Below, in pieces: positions 43,747-53,321 of a stretch of 64,000 bases of DNA. This DNA comes from Alphaproteobacteria bacterium (GTDB lineage Bacteria > Pseudomonadota > Alphaproteobacteria > Micavibrionales > Micavibrionaceae): NCBI GenBank assembly GCA_002401965.1, contig NVUR01000021.1:1-64000 (forward strand), read 5' to 3'. Within the stretch, counting starts at the first letter, position 1; the number at the start of each line of letters is the position of its first letter. The notes beneath the pieces were generated by a model, which saw only the letters and a list, made by a program, of their open reading frames with translations, searched no databases and was not told the origin of the DNA. The translations under genes and the position numbers were made by a program.

Positions 43747-44031
43747 TATTTTTCCGTATCATTTAGAGGAATTTCACCGATTATAAAACAAAGTAAGCCC
43801 CACGTCTAATCAGGAACGAGAACTATCAACACCATAGTTATGTTTCAAGCAAAAGCGAATACGGAAAATTTTTCCCTTATCGCCATAATAAAGCACTTAC
43901 CCACAGGACAAAACAGCCAGAGCAGAAAAAACGCCACACACCAAAACCACGATAAACACTTGAAAAATAACAATTTTACATTCTGGCATGGTCTTCGCAT
44001 TGTACAGATCGGAAGAATAGGAAAATATATA
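43747..44031. other. 285-base divergent region between fliL and flgF
   Basis: No coding evidence on either strand; an open frame from 43840 runs into flgF but the family N-terminus begins at 44032. It holds the flgF sigma54-like element listed separately. No matching element was found pointing toward fliL. Confidence 0.5.
43984..43999 (+). promoter_or_regulatory. Candidate sigma54 promoter of flgF
   Basis: TGGCATGGTCTTCGCA: GG at 43985-43986, ten bases, GC at 43997-43998. Predicted start about 44010, leaving a leader of about 22 bases that includes AGGAAA before the flgF ATG at 44032. The TTCGCA half is shared with the fliX and flgI elements. Confidence 0.6.
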
Positions 44032-44751
44032 ATGGAAAATAGTATTTATCTCGGACTATCCCGACAGATGGTTTTGAAAAACAATATGGATATTGTGGCC
44101 AATAATATTGCCAACATGAACACCAGTGGTTTTCGCGGACAAAACCCAGTGTTTGAGGAATACCTATCTGACCCGCGCTATGGCGATGATGAATTATCAT
44201 TTGTCCATGATTATGGTCAGTATCAAATGACCAGCCCTGGATCAATGAAACAAACCGAGAATCCGTTAAATGTCGCGCTAAGCGGTCCTGGATTTATGGG
44301 GGTTCAAATGCCCGGCGGTGAAATCGGCTACACACGCGATGGTAATTTCCAAAAAACGGCCGATGGCACTTTGGTTAATTCATCGGGATGGCCGATTATG
44401 GGACAAGGGGGCGCGATTACTATTCCAGCCAGCTCCACCGAGATATCAATTGATGAGCGCGGCATGATTTCCGACCAGAACGGCACAATCGGGCAATTAC
44501 AGATTGTTGAGTTCGATAACGTACAAGAACTGGAAGCCAGAGGGAATAACCTCTACACAACAGACGGCGCATTTACCACCGCAACAAAGACCACAGCGCA
44601 GCAAGGGTTTTTAGAAGGATCAAACGTCAATTCAGTGGTTGAAATGACCCGCATGATCGAGATTCTCCGCGACTTTCAAACCACACAGAAATTACTGGAC
44701 AGCGAGCATGACCGCCTGCGTTCAGCCATACAGAAATTAACCCGCGTTTAG
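44032..44751 (+). CDS. flgF: Flagellar proximal rod protein FlgF
   Basis: Rod subunit. The 239-residue product begins MENSIYLGLSRQMVLKNNMDIVANNIANMNTSGFR, the FlgF form of the rod/hook N-terminal motif, and ends with the C-terminal EGSNVNSVVEMTRMIEILRDFQTTQKLL. The ATG at 44032 is preceded by AGGAAA; a longer frame from 43840 is unsupported. First gene of flgF-flgG-flgA-flgH on the plus strand, with flgG 37 bases downstream. Confidence 0.95.
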   Translation: MENSIYLGLSRQMVLKNNMDIVANNIANMNTSGFRGQNPVFEEYLSDPRYGDDELSFVHDYGQYQMTSPGSMKQTENPLNVALSGPGFMGVQMPGGEIGYTRDGNFQKTADGTLVNSSGWPIMGQGGAITIPASSTEISIDERGMISDQNGTIGQLQIVEFDNVQELEARGNNLYTTDGAFTTATKTTAQQGFLEGSNVNSVVEMTRMIEILRDFQTTQKLLDSEHDRLRSAIQKLTRV

Positions 44752-47407: not shown

Positions 47408-48430
47408 ATGGGCAACACTGAAAACTGCTGTAAGATGAACATTTGGCATATAATAAAATCTATTACTCCAGGGATAATGGCTTGCCTGATGATATCCTTG
47501 GTGGCGACCTCTGTTGCACAATATTATAATGTGCCTGCAATGCTTCTTTGCTTATTATTTGGCATCGCCCTTAACTTTATATCCCGAAGAAACATAACCA
47601 AAGAAGGCGTTAATTTTACTGCTAAAACTATATTAAGGGCAGGAGTCGTCTTAATTGGCGCGCGCATCATGTTCTCCGATTTTATGGCTCTTGGCGGGGA
47701 AATTCTTGCCTTAGTGATTTTATCAACCGCAAGCGTGGTTATCGTTGGTCTGGTATTGGCCAAACGCTTAGGCTTACAGACAGAGCAAGGCATCTTGATA
47801 GGCGGAGCGACGGCAATATGTGGGGCGTCTGCGGCTCTTGCAATTTCCGCAATGCTACCTCAAACCAAGACATTGGAGCAAAATACACTCATCGCGGTTA
47901 TTGGCGTGACCTTAATGGGAACACTAGCCATGATTATGTACCCTGCCCTGATTGTTTTATTAGGGTTCAATGATTACCAAGCCGGTATTTTCATCGGCGG
48001 CACAATACATGATGTATCGCAGGTCGTTGGCGCAGGGTACAGCATCTCCGAAGAGACTGGGGATACGGCAATATTAATAAAATTAATGCGCGTATTCCTA
48101 CTTGTTCCTCTATTGCTTTTATTTATCTTTGGGTTCGGTAAGCAAAAACATGAAGAAAACCCGAAACGTGTTGCTTTTCCTGTTTTCCTGTTAGGGTTCT
48201 TGTGCCTGATGACCTTAAACTCATTCCACCTCATTCCCGCAGACATCACCGCCATTCTGAAAAATACAAGCCAATGGTTTTTACTTATGGCCATTTCAGC
48301 CGTCGGTATAAAAACATCCCCCAAGGCACTTCTATCCCTTGGTTATAAGCCCATTATCCTCATTGGTTGTGAAGCAGGCTTTATCCTGACACTTTACCTT
48401 GTCTTTCTTTTTATACATCCCAATATTTAA
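47408..48430 (+). CDS. YeiH/UPF0324-type membrane transporter
   Basis: A 340-residue integral membrane protein with about ten helices, of the family annotated as putative sulfate exporter (UPF0324, PF03601). Signatures seen are NFISRRNITKEGVNF, KTILRAGVVLIGARI, GGATAICGASAALAISA, GGTIHDVSQVVGAG and the C-terminal KTSPKALLSLGYKP. The transported substrate is not established. The start may be 47408 or ATG 47435; neither has a clear ribosome site. It is an isolated non-flagellar gene between flgH and tRNA-Met. Confidence 0.88.
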   Translation: MGNTENCCKMNIWHIIKSITPGIMACLMISLVATSVAQYYNVPAMLLCLLFGIALNFISRRNITKEGVNFTAKTILRAGVVLIGARIMFSDFMALGGEILALVILSTASVVIVGLVLAKRLGLQTEQGILIGGATAICGASAALAISAMLPQTKTLEQNTLIAVIGVTLMGTLAMIMYPALIVLLGFNDYQAGIFIGGTIHDVSQVVGAGYSISEETGDTAILIKLMRVFLLVPLLLLFIFGFGKQKHEENPKRVAFPVFLLGFLCLMTLNSFHLIPADITAILKNTSQWFLLMAISAVGIKTSPKALLSLGYKPIILIGCEAGFILTLYLVFLFIHPNI

Positions 48431-49458: not shown

Positions 49459-49887
49459 TTATGCCTGTGTTTTTTCCATGCGTTCGTGATGCTCTTGCGC
49501 TTCCAGACCCAAGGTAGCGATAGGACGGGCTTTCAAACGACCAATCCCAATCGGCTCACCCGTTTCATCGCAATACCCATATTCATCTGCATCCAACTTA
49601 CGGATCGTTGAATTAATCTTGGAGATCAACTTACGCTCTCTGTCACGGGTGCGCAGTTCCAGCGCGTGATCGGTTTCCGCCGATGCGCGATCTGCCATAT
49701 CCGGCTTTTGCAATTCTGTGCTTTGCAGAGTGTCTTGAATTGTCGCCTCGGACTCTTTTAATAAGTCTTCGCGCCATGCGATGAGTTGCTGACGGAAATA
49801 TTCCTTCATCACCGGATTCATAAATTCCCCTTCATCCTTCTCAGGATCATAATCAGGGGGTAGAGTTACGCTACTTGATGTTGTCAT
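49459..49887 (-). CDS. dksA: RNA polymerase-binding regulator DksA
   Basis: Works with ppGpp at the RNA polymerase secondary channel. The 142-residue product has the family's coiled coil with the tip motif DMADRA (Asp63 and Asp66), and the globular part EYGYCDETGEPIGIGRLKARPIATLGLEAQEHHE. Of the four zinc Cys of E. coli DksA only the first (Cys106) is kept; the others are Thr, Gly and Ala. Such Cys-poor DksA proteins are usual in alphaproteobacteria and can be functional. It is followed by two terminators and preceded by fliX on the same strand, about 130 bases away. Confidence 0.93.
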   Translation of the reverse strand: MTTSSSVTLPPDYDPEKDEGEFMNPVMKEYFRQQLIAWREDLLKESEATIQDTLQSTELQKPDMADRASAETDHALELRTRDRERKLISKINSTIRKLDADEYGYCDETGEPIGIGRLKARPIATLGLEAQEHHERMEKTQA

Positions 49888-50019: not shown

Positions 50020-50460
50020 CTACTCCTGATCCATCGCATAACGCATTTTGGCAAGCTCAACTTGCGCGCGTAGATCAATTTCATCCATGATCGCAGTTAA
50101 GGCCGGATCATCAATTTTATCACGATGGGATGCCACCACATCGGCAACATCAATCATATGACCAACAGTTAAATCACCGCCCAACATTTTCAAACGGATA
50201 TCATCCAGCTTTTCCAAAATATTATCCGCCCGCACCTGAACGCGCCTTTTCGCCGCACCGTGTGTAGGATCTTCTACTTCCTGCACCGCCAATAGAGCAT
50301 CTAACTGTGCAATATTCTGTGTTGCAGAGGTGCTGGCAGCTTCACTCACGCCCCCAGTTATATATTGAGAGAAATCTACGTTACTGTCCCCACCGGCAGA
50401 AGAGGATGATTTCTGCGTACCGGATGTTGATTTAGGGCCTTTAGAACCACCGACTTTCAT
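50020..50460 (-). CDS. fliX: Flagellar assembly regulator FliX
   Basis: In Caulobacter FliX couples completion of the early basal body to activity of the sigma54 activator FlbD. The 146-residue product fits: N-terminal MKVGGSKGPKSTSG, a Ser-rich linker, ITGGVSEAASTSATQNIAQLDALLAVQEVEDP, then LEKLDDIRLKMLGGDLT and a C-terminal LRAQVELAKMRYA. It is divergent from flgI, as in Caulobacter. A sigma54-like element lies close upstream. FlbD itself is not in the window. Confidence 0.9.
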   Translation of the reverse strand: MKVGGSKGPKSTSGTQKSSSSAGGDSNVDFSQYITGGVSEAASTSATQNIAQLDALLAVQEVEDPTHGAAKRRVQVRADNILEKLDDIRLKMLGGDLTVGHMIDVADVVASHRDKIDDPALTAIMDEIDLRAQVELAKMRYAMDQE

Positions 50461-50484
50461 GACATACGCCTTTCTTTATCTATG

Positions 50485-50500
50485 TGCGAATCCATAGCCA
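50485..50500 (-). promoter_or_regulatory. Candidate sigma54 promoter of fliX
   Basis: Minus strand TGGCTATGGATTCGCA: GG at 50499-50498, ten bases, GC at 50487-50486. The predicted start is about 50474, only some 14 bases before the ATG, but an AAAGG ribosome site still fits in between. Confidence 0.5.
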
Positions 50501-50655
50501 TAACTATACGCCCTATCAAACAAGACGATCAAGTCGGTAAGAATTGCCTAGCCCAATCCCGCAGCAGACAAAAACTTCCTATCATTCGGGGGACTGGCGC
50601 AATGTTACCTCCTCACGAAACGCCACAATGCCTGCAAATACAAGGTTTTTAAAAC

Positions 50656-50671
50656 TGGCACAGCTTTCGCA
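50656..50671 (+). promoter_or_regulatory. Candidate sigma54 promoter of the flgI operon
   Basis: TGGCACAGCTTTCGCA: GG at 50657-50658, ten bases, GC at 50669-50670. The -24 half TGGCAC is exact consensus; the -12 half is TCGC instead of TTGC. Predicted start about 50682, leaving a leader of about 70 bases that contains the AAAGTAGA repeats. Confidence 0.65.
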
Positions 50672-50752
50672 ACGTATGTTTCGAGAGATCAACAAAGATT
50701 TCCTTCAAAAGCGTAAAAGTAGAGAAAAGTAGAGTTAAAGTAGAAAGTAAGA

Positions 50753-51928
50753 ATGTTTAGTTTTGGACAAACATATAAAGCGAACACTTCGGTGGTATTC
50801 CGGTCGTCATTCCTAAAGAATTTAGGGGTTGTAGTGACGGCCGGAGCATTACTGCTTCAGCCATTATCACCTGCTTTTGCCAAAACTTCACGTATTAAAG
50901 ATATAGTCGCCATAGAGGGTGTCCGCGAAAACCAATTGGTTGGGTACGGCCTTATCGTTGGTTTGAACGGCACGGGTGACGGTCTTAATAACTCACCCTT
51001 CACAAAACAAAGCCTGATTGCGATGTTGGAGCGTTTAAACGTCAACATCCGCGGCGAGAATGTGAATACAGGTAACGTTGCCGCCGTGATGGTGACAGCC
51101 TCCCTGCCCCCATTTGCCAATCAAGGTTCAAAGATTGATGTGAATGTCTCCGCGCTTGGCGATGCCAGCTCCCTGCAAGGCGGTACATTATTAGTAACAC
51201 CTCTTATTGCCGCAGATGGCGAAGTTTACGCGGTTGCACAAGGTGGGGTCAATATTGCCGGGTTCTCGGTTGAGGGAGACGCCGCCTCTATCACGCAAAA
51301 TATTCCAACCGCAGGACGCATTCCTAATGGCGGGATTGTTGAACGCGAAATTGATTTCCAGCTTGAAGATTTACAGCAAATCCGTCTAGCCTTAAGAAAC
51401 CCCGACTTCACGACGGCGCGCCGCATTGCACAAGCCATTAACGGCTTCACCAATTCTACGCTGGCCAAAGCAGAAAATTCCGCCAGCGTTGTCTTGCGCC
51501 GCCCCAGCAATTATGACGGCACGATTGTTGACCTTATTACAGATATAGAGCAACTGCCCATTCAGCCTGACCAACCTGCAAAAGTTATCATCAGTGAGCG
51601 TTCAGGCATTGTCGTAATGGGCGCAGATGTACGGGTCAGCAGTGTTGCGATTGCACAAGGCAACCTGACATTAAAAATTAACGAGACTCCGCAGGTGTCC
51701 CAAGCCAACCCCTTCGCAGATCAGGGCGAGACCGTAATTGTGCCGCGCACCGATGTTTCCGCCAATGTTGGTGAAGATGTGAAACTGACGGTTCTTCAAT
51801 CAGGTGTGACCTTACAAGAACTTGTAACAGGATTAAATCAACTGGGCGTTAAACCCCGCGACGTTATCACTATTCTACAAGCCATAAAAGCAGCCGGCGC
51901 GTTGCAAGCAGAAATAGAGGTGATGTAA
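50753..51928 (+). CDS. flgI: Flagellar P-ring protein FlgI
   Basis: Periplasmic ring around the rod in the peptidoglycan layer. The 391-residue precursor has a signal peptide ending SPAFA (about residue 43), then the FlgI hallmark RIKDIVAIEGVRENQLVGYGLIVGLNGTGD, VNTGNVAAVMVTASLPPFA, and the C-terminal LQELVTGLNQLGVKPRDVITILQAIKAAGALQAEIEVM. The last base of its TAA stop is the A of the next ATG. Head of flgI-flgJ-flgN-like x2-fliK-flgD-flgE. Confidence 0.97.
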   Translation: MFSFGQTYKANTSVVFRSSFLKNLGVVVTAGALLLQPLSPAFAKTSRIKDIVAIEGVRENQLVGYGLIVGLNGTGDGLNNSPFTKQSLIAMLERLNVNIRGENVNTGNVAAVMVTASLPPFANQGSKIDVNVSALGDASSLQGGTLLVTPLIAADGEVYAVAQGGVNIAGFSVEGDAASITQNIPTAGRIPNGGIVEREIDFQLEDLQQIRLALRNPDFTTARRIAQAINGFTNSTLAKAENSASVVLRRPSNYDGTIVDLITDIEQLPIQPDQPAKVIISERSGIVVMGADVRVSSVAIAQGNLTLKINETPQVSQANPFADQGETVIVPRTDVSANVGEDVKLTVLQSGVTLQELVTGLNQLGVKPRDVITILQAIKAAGALQAEIEVM

Positions 51929-52347: not shown

Positions 52348-52803
52348 ATGAACAAACAAACGCAAAGACAAAGCACAAACGTTCTTGGGCAAGATGTTAA
52401 TCAAGCCCTGCGTGAGCTTGTGCGCCTCAACAAAAAACTTATCGAATTTGCCGATCAGGAAACACAAAGTCTGGTCACCAGCGATCACATGCGCTTTGCA
52501 TTTACCCAACAGGACAAGGAGAGTCTGGCGCGCCAGTATATGCAAGCCTCGGAAGAATTCCGAACCCGCCTTGATGATTTCCGTCATGCCGATAAAAGCA
52601 TCTTGATGCAGCTTGAGAAGCTACAGGTTGAGTTAAAGGAAAAAACGCAAAATAATAACGTGTTAATCAACCAAATTAAGACCCGTGCTGCGGCGAACAC
52701 GCAATCAACATTGTTCACAGTGCAGGAATTGGGGCAACGCGTTAGCTTCCCTGACAATGCTGCCCAAAAAGGCACAAATAAAGAAGAAAGGGTCGCATCA
52801 TGA
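52348..52803 (+). CDS. FlgN-like flagellar chaperone, copy 1
   Basis: A 151-residue helical protein with long heptad patterns (LVRLNKKLIEFADQETQSLVTSD, LARQYMQASEEFRTRLDDF), as in FlgN, the export chaperone of hook-associated proteins. Location between flgJ and fliK is where alphaproteobacterial flgN-like genes occur. It shares an N-terminal pattern (L..D.N.ALRE, ET..L...D, Q..K..LA..Y) with the next gene, suggesting a tandem duplication. The stop overlaps the next start (ATGA). Confidence 0.6.
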   Translation: MNKQTQRQSTNVLGQDVNQALRELVRLNKKLIEFADQETQSLVTSDHMRFAFTQQDKESLARQYMQASEEFRTRLDDFRHADKSILMQLEKLQVELKEKTQNNNVLINQIKTRAAANTQSTLFTVQELGQRVSFPDNAAQKGTNKEERVAS

Positions 52804-53321
52804 ATTATAACCGACAACAGCCCCCTGCACCGGAAAAACCCGCGCAACCACAGCAAATAATACAATTCAGAACGCTGTCAAAAGATACAAATACGGCGTT
52901 ACGTGAAGTTGCCTCCACAATCAATAAAATGAGCAAAGTTTTTGTTGAGGAAACCGACGCACTAAACAAAACGGACAGGAATGCATTTATTGCGCTGCAA
53001 GAACAGAAACTCTTAACCGCGCAGGAATATCAAAGCGACATGGGACAAATGATTGGACGCAAAAACGAGCTGACAAGTGCCGACCCTGCGATGAAGGAAA
53101 GACTAAAGAAGATGCAAGCCGACTTCGCAGAAATATCCAGCAAAAATCTGGAGGCTCTTTCACGCATGCAGCGCTGCACCGAGAAACTAGGCAACACGAT
53201 AAGAAACGCCGCCATTCACGCCGCGCAAAAGCAAAATGGCTATAGCTATGGTGAAAATGGCGCAATATCAAACGCCGCAAAAAGAAAGGCCATTTCATCT
53301 GGTCTTAGTGAAACCGTATAA
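52800..53321 (+). CDS. FlgN-like flagellar chaperone, copy 2
   Basis: A 173-residue helical protein overlapping copy 1 by four bases. After a Pro/Gln-rich leader it reads LSKDTNTALREVASTINKMSKVFVEETDALNKTD and continues in coiled-coil helices, ending in a basic tail with NGYSYGENG, a Tyr-Gly motif common at the end of alphaproteobacterial FlgN proteins. Of the two copies this one looks closer to FlgN. Client proteins (FlgK, FlgL) are not in the window. Confidence 0.6.
   Translation: MNYNRQQPPAPEKPAQPQQIIQFRTLSKDTNTALREVASTINKMSKVFVEETDALNKTDRNAFIALQEQKLLTAQEYQSDMGQMIGRKNELTSADPAMKERLKKMQADFAEISSKNLEALSRMQRCTEKLGNTIRNAAIHAAQKQNGYSYGENGAISNAAKRKAISSGLSETV

Follow-up and report, generated by a model that had tools for sequence, protein, structure and literature searches.

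A conserved palindrome between fliX and flgI as a probable FlbD operator beside a single conserved sigma54 promoter

The region between the divergent genes fliX and flgI raises the question of how a modulator of the activator FlbD and a P-ring gene might be controlled from one small stretch of DNA. A sequence-only reading had placed two back-to-back sigma54 promoters there, one for each gene. We analysed this region in a stretch of 64,000 nucleotides (the window), which sits on contig 7 of a 2.09 Mb assembly that is 86% complete, and compared it with the corresponding DNA of relatives. Two genes flank the region.

50020 to 50460, minus strand: fliX, 146 aa, modulator of FlbD; ATG at 50460; PF10768 FliX, E=6e-36
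50753 to 51928, plus strand: flgI, 391 aa, P-ring protein; ATG at 50753; PF02119, E=1e-137

Five NCBIfam FliX models also match the 146-aa fliX product (best E 2e-34), all of them below their own cut-offs. Located 3' of flgI on the same strand are, by Pfam, a gene for a rod-binding protein, then two ORFs, a fliK-type gene, flgD and a flgE-type gene. We infer that flgI and these downstream genes of the same direction form an operon. The ORFs at 52348-52803 and 52800-53321, between flgI and the fliK-type gene, have no Pfam matches. On the other side, fliX is followed on its own strand, after 132 nt, by a dksA-type gene (49459-49887) that may be on a common transcript with it. By FlgI, the closest named relative is an unclassified alphaproteobacterial assembly (97% identity), and Micavibrio sp. 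is the label of several that come after it.

The sequence-only reading had suggested a search for rpoN and flbD, and the genome has both rpoN and a gene for an FlbD-type activator. A search with the RpoN DNA-binding domain returned one gene (rpoN), and three sigma54-activator genes were identified with E below 1e-68. The FlbD-type activator is encoded about 15 kb beyond flgI, within the same flagellar cluster. Its best model is NF050807 (FlbD; E=4e-212), with a score of 705 bits against a cut-off of 750 bits and about twice that of the next family. AAA+ and Fis-type HTH domains were identified in this protein; the receiver domain falls below the Pfam cut-off. The receiver domain of FlbD is reported to be divergent (PMC3096577).

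Both 16-mers on which the two-promoter proposal was built are present between the genes, and both have the GG-N10-GC spacing and the TTCGCA that had been claimed for them.

50656 to 50671, plus strand: sigma54 promoter of flgI, TGGCACAGCTTTCGCA; start expected near 50682
50485 to 50500, minus strand: fliX-directed sigma54-like match, TGGCTATGGATTCGCA; taken to be either a look-alike or a site gained very recently

A third exact copy of TGGC-N6-TTCGCA occurs at 43984-43999 (plus strand), 48 nt before flgF. The pattern TGGC-N6-TTSGCA has three matches in the window against 0.43 expected, a number reached by 2 of 100 shuffles. With one mismatch allowed, TGGC-N6-TTCGCA has six matches against 6.4 expected, which is the level of chance. 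Only comparison with relatives separates the two 16-mers, and in that comparison only the flgI site holds up.

Two surveys were used. Within the Micavibrio order, flgI was found in 54 of 58 genomes and 50 were examined (G023, G052, G053 and G056 were left out). Class-wide, FliX was found in 80 of 142 genomes, our own included, and 69 of the other 79 were examined; 13 of these have no divergent flgI in the DNA covered, leaving 56 loci. The class sample is mostly one genome per family, and the families are not fully independent. First-order Markov simulation served as the control for counts of flgI sites, fliX matches and palindromes.

The flgI site combines the GG-N10-GC core with a TGGCAC-like -24 element. 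Sigma54-type sites directed at flgI were identified in 46 of the 50 order loci and in 50 of the 56 class-wide loci with divergent flgI, a recurrence that bears out the promoter proposed for this gene. Among the 46 order regions with both genes, 42 have a site of the flgI type (simulated mean 0.55). Named loci from Hyphomicrobiales and other groups show the same type of site at flgI, with a few misses. At the level of sequence comparison, this conservation is strong evidence that the flgI sigma54 promoter is real and old.

The region also contains a palindrome that is close to fliX.

50536 to 50548, no strand: palindrome GGTAAGAATTGCC, putative FlbD operator/enhancer (ftr-like), common to flgI and fliX

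The palindrome precedes the -24 element of flgI by 120 bp, and 3 bp separate it from the putative -35 element of fliX. In an alignment of the genus with two near relatives, the block that reads CAAGTCGGTAAGAATTGCCTAG in the window is kept and much of the rest has drifted. The comparisons show both the palindrome and its positions to be recurrent. The core GG(T/C/A)AA-N3-(T/A/C)TGCC is present in 35 of 50 order loci, four of them at odd positions; the odd palindromes (G012, G014, G028 and G054) stayed in the matrix training set, and those of G012 and G054 are downstream of the flgI site. Palindromes of at least 12 bits, at most 250 bp upstream of the flgI site, were found in 35 of 43 order loci (the matrix training set; simulated mean 0.40) and in 37 of 50 class loci, all at 64-144 bp (simulated mean 0.37). 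A palindrome of 12 bits is absent at 8 of the 43 order sites and at 13 of the 50 class sites. In the named outgroup (L092-L151), where positions are rough, 48 of 60 loci were usable and 46 of these have a palindrome of at least 12 bits. In several outgroup loci (among L095-L149, with many Devosia) a pair of palindromes precedes flgI, spaced by about 43 bp (at 142 and 99 bp, for instance); the second of the pair often scores close to 12 bits or less. Elsewhere in the window, a 17.9-bit match occurs at 47698, inside the coding sequence 47408-48430; 0.38 matches of at least 17 bits are expected by chance per window.

In the class sample the distances between palindrome and promoter show a periodicity of about 11 bp (R=0.59, n=37), a strength reached by none of 3000 jittered sets; for the 25 distinct distances, p=0.0017. 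This suggests that the operator must face the promoter. For the Micavibrio order alone, from which three loci with short upstream DNA were dropped, the signal does not reach significance (p=0.10, and p=0.36 for a period of 10.5 bp), and helical phasing within the order was rejected. At 10.5 bp, distinct distances are not significantly periodic either, whether in the named outgroup (p=0.09) or with order and outgroup pooled (p=0.19). IHF-like matches with at most one mismatch are present in 16 of 36 spacers between palindrome and promoter, against 4.8 expected.

Sequences resembling a sigma70-type promoter were identified on the fliX side of the palindrome.

50527 to 50532, minus strand: putative fliX -35 element, TTGATC, 3 bp from the palindrome
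50503 to 50508, minus strand: putative fliX -10 element, TATAGT, after an 18-bp spacer; start expected near 50496

In the nearest relative the -10 element is TATAAT. TTG occurs at the window's offset from the palindrome, on the fliX side, in 21 of 39 order loci (shuffle mean 1.5), and TTG followed after 16-19 nt by TATAAT with at most one mismatch in 13 of the 39 (shuffle mean 0.2, largest 3). Single-base shuffles were the control for these sigma70-type tests, in order and class, and also for the IHF matches. Thus, we infer that fliX is driven by a sigma70-type promoter, TTGATC-18-TATAGT. The same layout across the class was rejected, as a -35 element abutting the palindrome was found in 4 of 37 loci against a null of 1.25. 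Judged by these counts, the abutting -35 element is a feature of the Micavibrio order and not of the class.

Palindromes of this type also accompany other genes, including flgF in the window.

43863 to 43875, no strand: palindrome GGAAAATTTTTCC, 121 bp upstream of the flgF sigma54 site; 16.0 bits
43984 to 43999, plus strand: sigma54 site of the flgF operon, TGGCATGGTCTTCGCA, 48 nt before flgF
44032 to 44751, plus strand: flgF, with rod-protein domains (Pfam); named from its place before flgG

The matrix that scores GGAAAATTTTTCC was built from fliX-flgI sites only, and the flgF, GGDEF and flgK sites are outside its training set. Of 43 genomes, 30 loci were examined at flgF. In five of these, our own included, there is a TCGC site, and each is preceded at 110-121 bp by a palindrome, which scores 15.7-18.3 bits in four and 11.0 bits in one. 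A conserved sigma54 site at flgF was rejected, as the pattern occurs in 6 of 30 loci, one of them with TTGC and no palindrome.

Several genes for short GGDEF proteins are preceded by a TCGC sigma54-type site (L255, L242, L243, L245, L246, L247, L251 and L252). The example in our own genome (L255, C51:85734) has a palindrome of 12.5 bits 84 bp upstream of the gene. For the eight GGDEF genes with TCGC sites, the palindrome scores 12.0-18.4 bits in five and 8.4-10.4 bits in three. The 11 second TCGC sites from relatives were picked by eye among the matches listed, and the GGDEF counts are not an even sample; one of the 11 has no gene found behind it, and another, at flgB in a relative, has no palindrome (1.7 bits). 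A short diguanylate cyclase may be an FlbD target in this family.

At flgK the palindrome is inside the gene. It falls in the codons for Arg-Lys-Ile-Leu-Pro (RKILP) in 15 of 21 loci read and, in our own genome (L286, C1:54096 onward), lies 109 nt after the ATG. These palindromes are downstream of a TTGC-type sigma54 site (L286 in our own genome and L287-L315). The arginine codons that they use, CGG and AGG, make up 9% of arginine codons in 14 genes of the window. The survey covered 30 loci of 40 genomes with a match, of which four had no start, eight no site and 18 a site; 21 were readable at the palindrome codons. A further TTGC sigma54-like site in our own genome (L236, C34:17670) is 35 nt before a gene whose 220-aa product matches no Pfam family, and there is no palindrome near it.

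The palindrome goes with flagellar sigma54 promoters, those of flgI, flgF and flgK. It is most simply read as the FlbD operator, because FlbD of Caulobacter acts at upstream ftr sites and, reportedly, at downstream elements as well. A flagellar promoter of Caulobacter reportedly has a 3' enhancer, and downstream elements ftr2 and ftr3 are also reported; the gene with the 3' enhancer is reportedly flgK. The palindrome inside flgK, downstream of its promoter, resembles that arrangement. We conclude that the shared palindrome is probably an FlbD operator and, by its behaviour, a putative equivalent of the ftr sites of Caulobacter.

The -12 elements of these sites are mainly of two forms. At flgI, TCGC is found at 43 of 46 order sites (TTGC at two, TGGC at one) and at 43 of 50 class sites (TTGC at five, TGGC at two), and the flgF and GGDEF sites here are also TCGC. 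This differs from the RpoN motif of Caulobacter, given in PMC4287350 as GGCNC-N4-CTTGC. The flgK sites of the order have TTGC in 18 of 18 cases, one of them (G001) doubtful with a misplaced gene start. In the 58 genomes, TGGCAY-N5-TTGCW occurs 441 times against 135 for a reversed-pattern control, and the TCGCW form 284 times against 128. We reject TCGC as the lineage-wide -12 form, because flgK sites use TTGC and because TTGCW exceeds its control by more than TCGCW does. The earlier suggestion that TCGC is the form preferred by the lineage thus describes what is usual at flgI and fails at flgK. In our own genome, 11 of 12 TTGC matches are inside some ORF of at least 70 aa; the criterion is a mechanical one, and the flgK site is among those it flags. 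Many of the genome-wide matches of the TGGCAY type may be due to chance.

Taken together, we consider an asymmetric divergent control region, in which FlbD on the conserved palindrome activates flgI and represses fliX, to have a probability of about two in three. FlbD would bind the palindrome near the fliX end of the region. For flgI the palindrome would serve as an upstream enhancer, from which FlbD, about 120 bp away, would activate RpoN polymerase at TGGCAC-N5-TCGCA, and IHF probably bends the DNA between palindrome and promoter. For fliX, FlbD on the same palindrome would repress the sigma70-type promoter, as it does fliF in Caulobacter. Acting through FlbD, FliX would thereby hold down its own production at the time when flgI is turned on. 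Repression is the least certain step of this scheme and is argued by analogy and position: the palindrome abuts the fliX -35 element, so FlbD bound there most likely represses. The synthesis of FliX is thus probably linked to the P-ring operon by one small region, as had been proposed; the part of that proposal that finds no support is a link through a sigma54 promoter of fliX.

That promoter is central to one competing explanation, in which two functional sigma54 promoters stand back to back, FlbD activates both fliX and flgI, and FliX favours its own production. In its favour, the fliX-directed match has the GG-N10-GC spacing and shares TTCGCA with the flgI and flgF sites of this genome, and transcription from about 50474 would give a leader of 14 nt that includes a GAAAGG ribosome site. 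The exact match has an expectation of 0.01 over 46 regions, for a pattern chosen after the match was seen. The nearest relative (FlgI 97%, FliX 93%) reads AGGCTATGGATTCGCA and keeps the GG-N10-GC core; only the first T is an A. Against this explanation, the comparisons show that the match is not conserved. The exact form is present in one of 46 order regions, that of the window itself, and the loose form in two against 0.85 expected, a number reached by 21.5% of simulations; across the class it is found in 2 of 56 loci. None of the other 10 genus loci with both genes has a TGGC-type match directed at fliX, and the looser match of G009 is far from fliX. The geometry is also unfavourable. The fliX-directed -24 element is only 48 bp from the shared palindrome, and the smallest distance elsewhere, counted upstream at 12 bits or more, is 53 bp among 36 order distances and 64 bp among 37 class distances. 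In addition, the 16-mer overlaps the predicted start of the sigma70-type transcript of fliX. On grounds of conservation and geometry we reject fliX as having a second sigma54 promoter; its 16-mer is probably a look-alike, and the explanation built on it is improbable.

Other explanations accept the flgI promoter and assign the palindrome or fliX differently. FlbD might activate the sigma70-type promoter of fliX from the palindrome, giving positive feedback, and a centre near -46 of the predicted start would suit an activator beside the -35 element. This is unlikely, given that in Caulobacter the promoters activated by FlbD are of the sigma54 type, and early genes, of which fliX is one there, are repressed by it (PMC3930126). 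Slightly less likely is that the palindrome belongs to a different regulator, such as another of the sigma54 activators, for which the genome offers three genes with E below 1e-68. Its occurrence with the flagellar sigma54 promoters of flgI, flgF and flgK speaks against this, as does the situation in Caulobacter, where the rod, ring and hook genes, taken as a class, have FlbD as their activator (PMC3096577 and PMC3930126). Finally, CtrA might drive fliX as in Caulobacter, where it activates early genes, fliX among them (PMC3930126), and full TTAA-N7-TTAA sites are present in 9 of 56 class regions. In a search for full sites only, however, such a site was found in 1 of 46 order regions and was absent from the fliX-flgI region here. 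We therefore reject CtrA at fliX in this organism and regard the idea as very improbable.

The preferred reading, activation of flgI and repression of fliX from one operator, is close to the class III flagellar system of Caulobacter crescentus, with FliX, an FlbD-type activator, RpoN, GG-N10-GC sites, a remote palindrome and IHF-like sites. There, FlbD acts at ftr sites as an activator of middle genes and a repressor of the early gene fliF (PMC3930126), and results with fliF-lacZ and fliK-lacZ and a requirement for IHF are reported (PMC3096577). An FlbD site upstream of an early gene, as proposed here, is known from fliF with ftr4 (PMC3930126). Unlike ftr4, the site here would also serve a sigma54 promoter that points the other way, and fliX takes the place of fliF as the early gene. 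Also unlike Caulobacter, there is no full CtrA site at fliX here, and the flgI sites here and in the class sample are mostly TCGC where the RpoN motif has TTGC (PMC4287350). Among the open-licence literature matches listed, no title or opening of an abstract concerns the fliX-flgI region; older Caulobacter work may well describe it.

A more speculative possibility, which we put forward tentatively and consider doubtful, is that the -12 forms make up a positional code at FlbD promoters of Alphaproteobacteria. Middle genes with an upstream operator (flgI, flgF and the short diguanylate cyclase) would have C at -14, and flgK, with its internal operator, T. From the fliX-flgI operator, kept on one helical face with respect to the promoter, FlbD would turn on the P-ring operon and repress the gene of its modulator, and the -14 base would tune how strictly RpoN polymerase waits for FlbD, helping to set the order of assembly. 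The use of TCGC at flgI would, in such a code, be class-wide.

In summary, a guess of two promoters becomes a testable circuit with one operator. The palindrome motif is a possible probe for FlbD targets. The proposed circuit would carry a scheme described chiefly in Caulobacter over to genomes with FliX sampled across the class, and the split between TCGC and TTGC, together with the palindrome in the codons of flgK, opens the order of flagellar expression in these bacteria to direct test.
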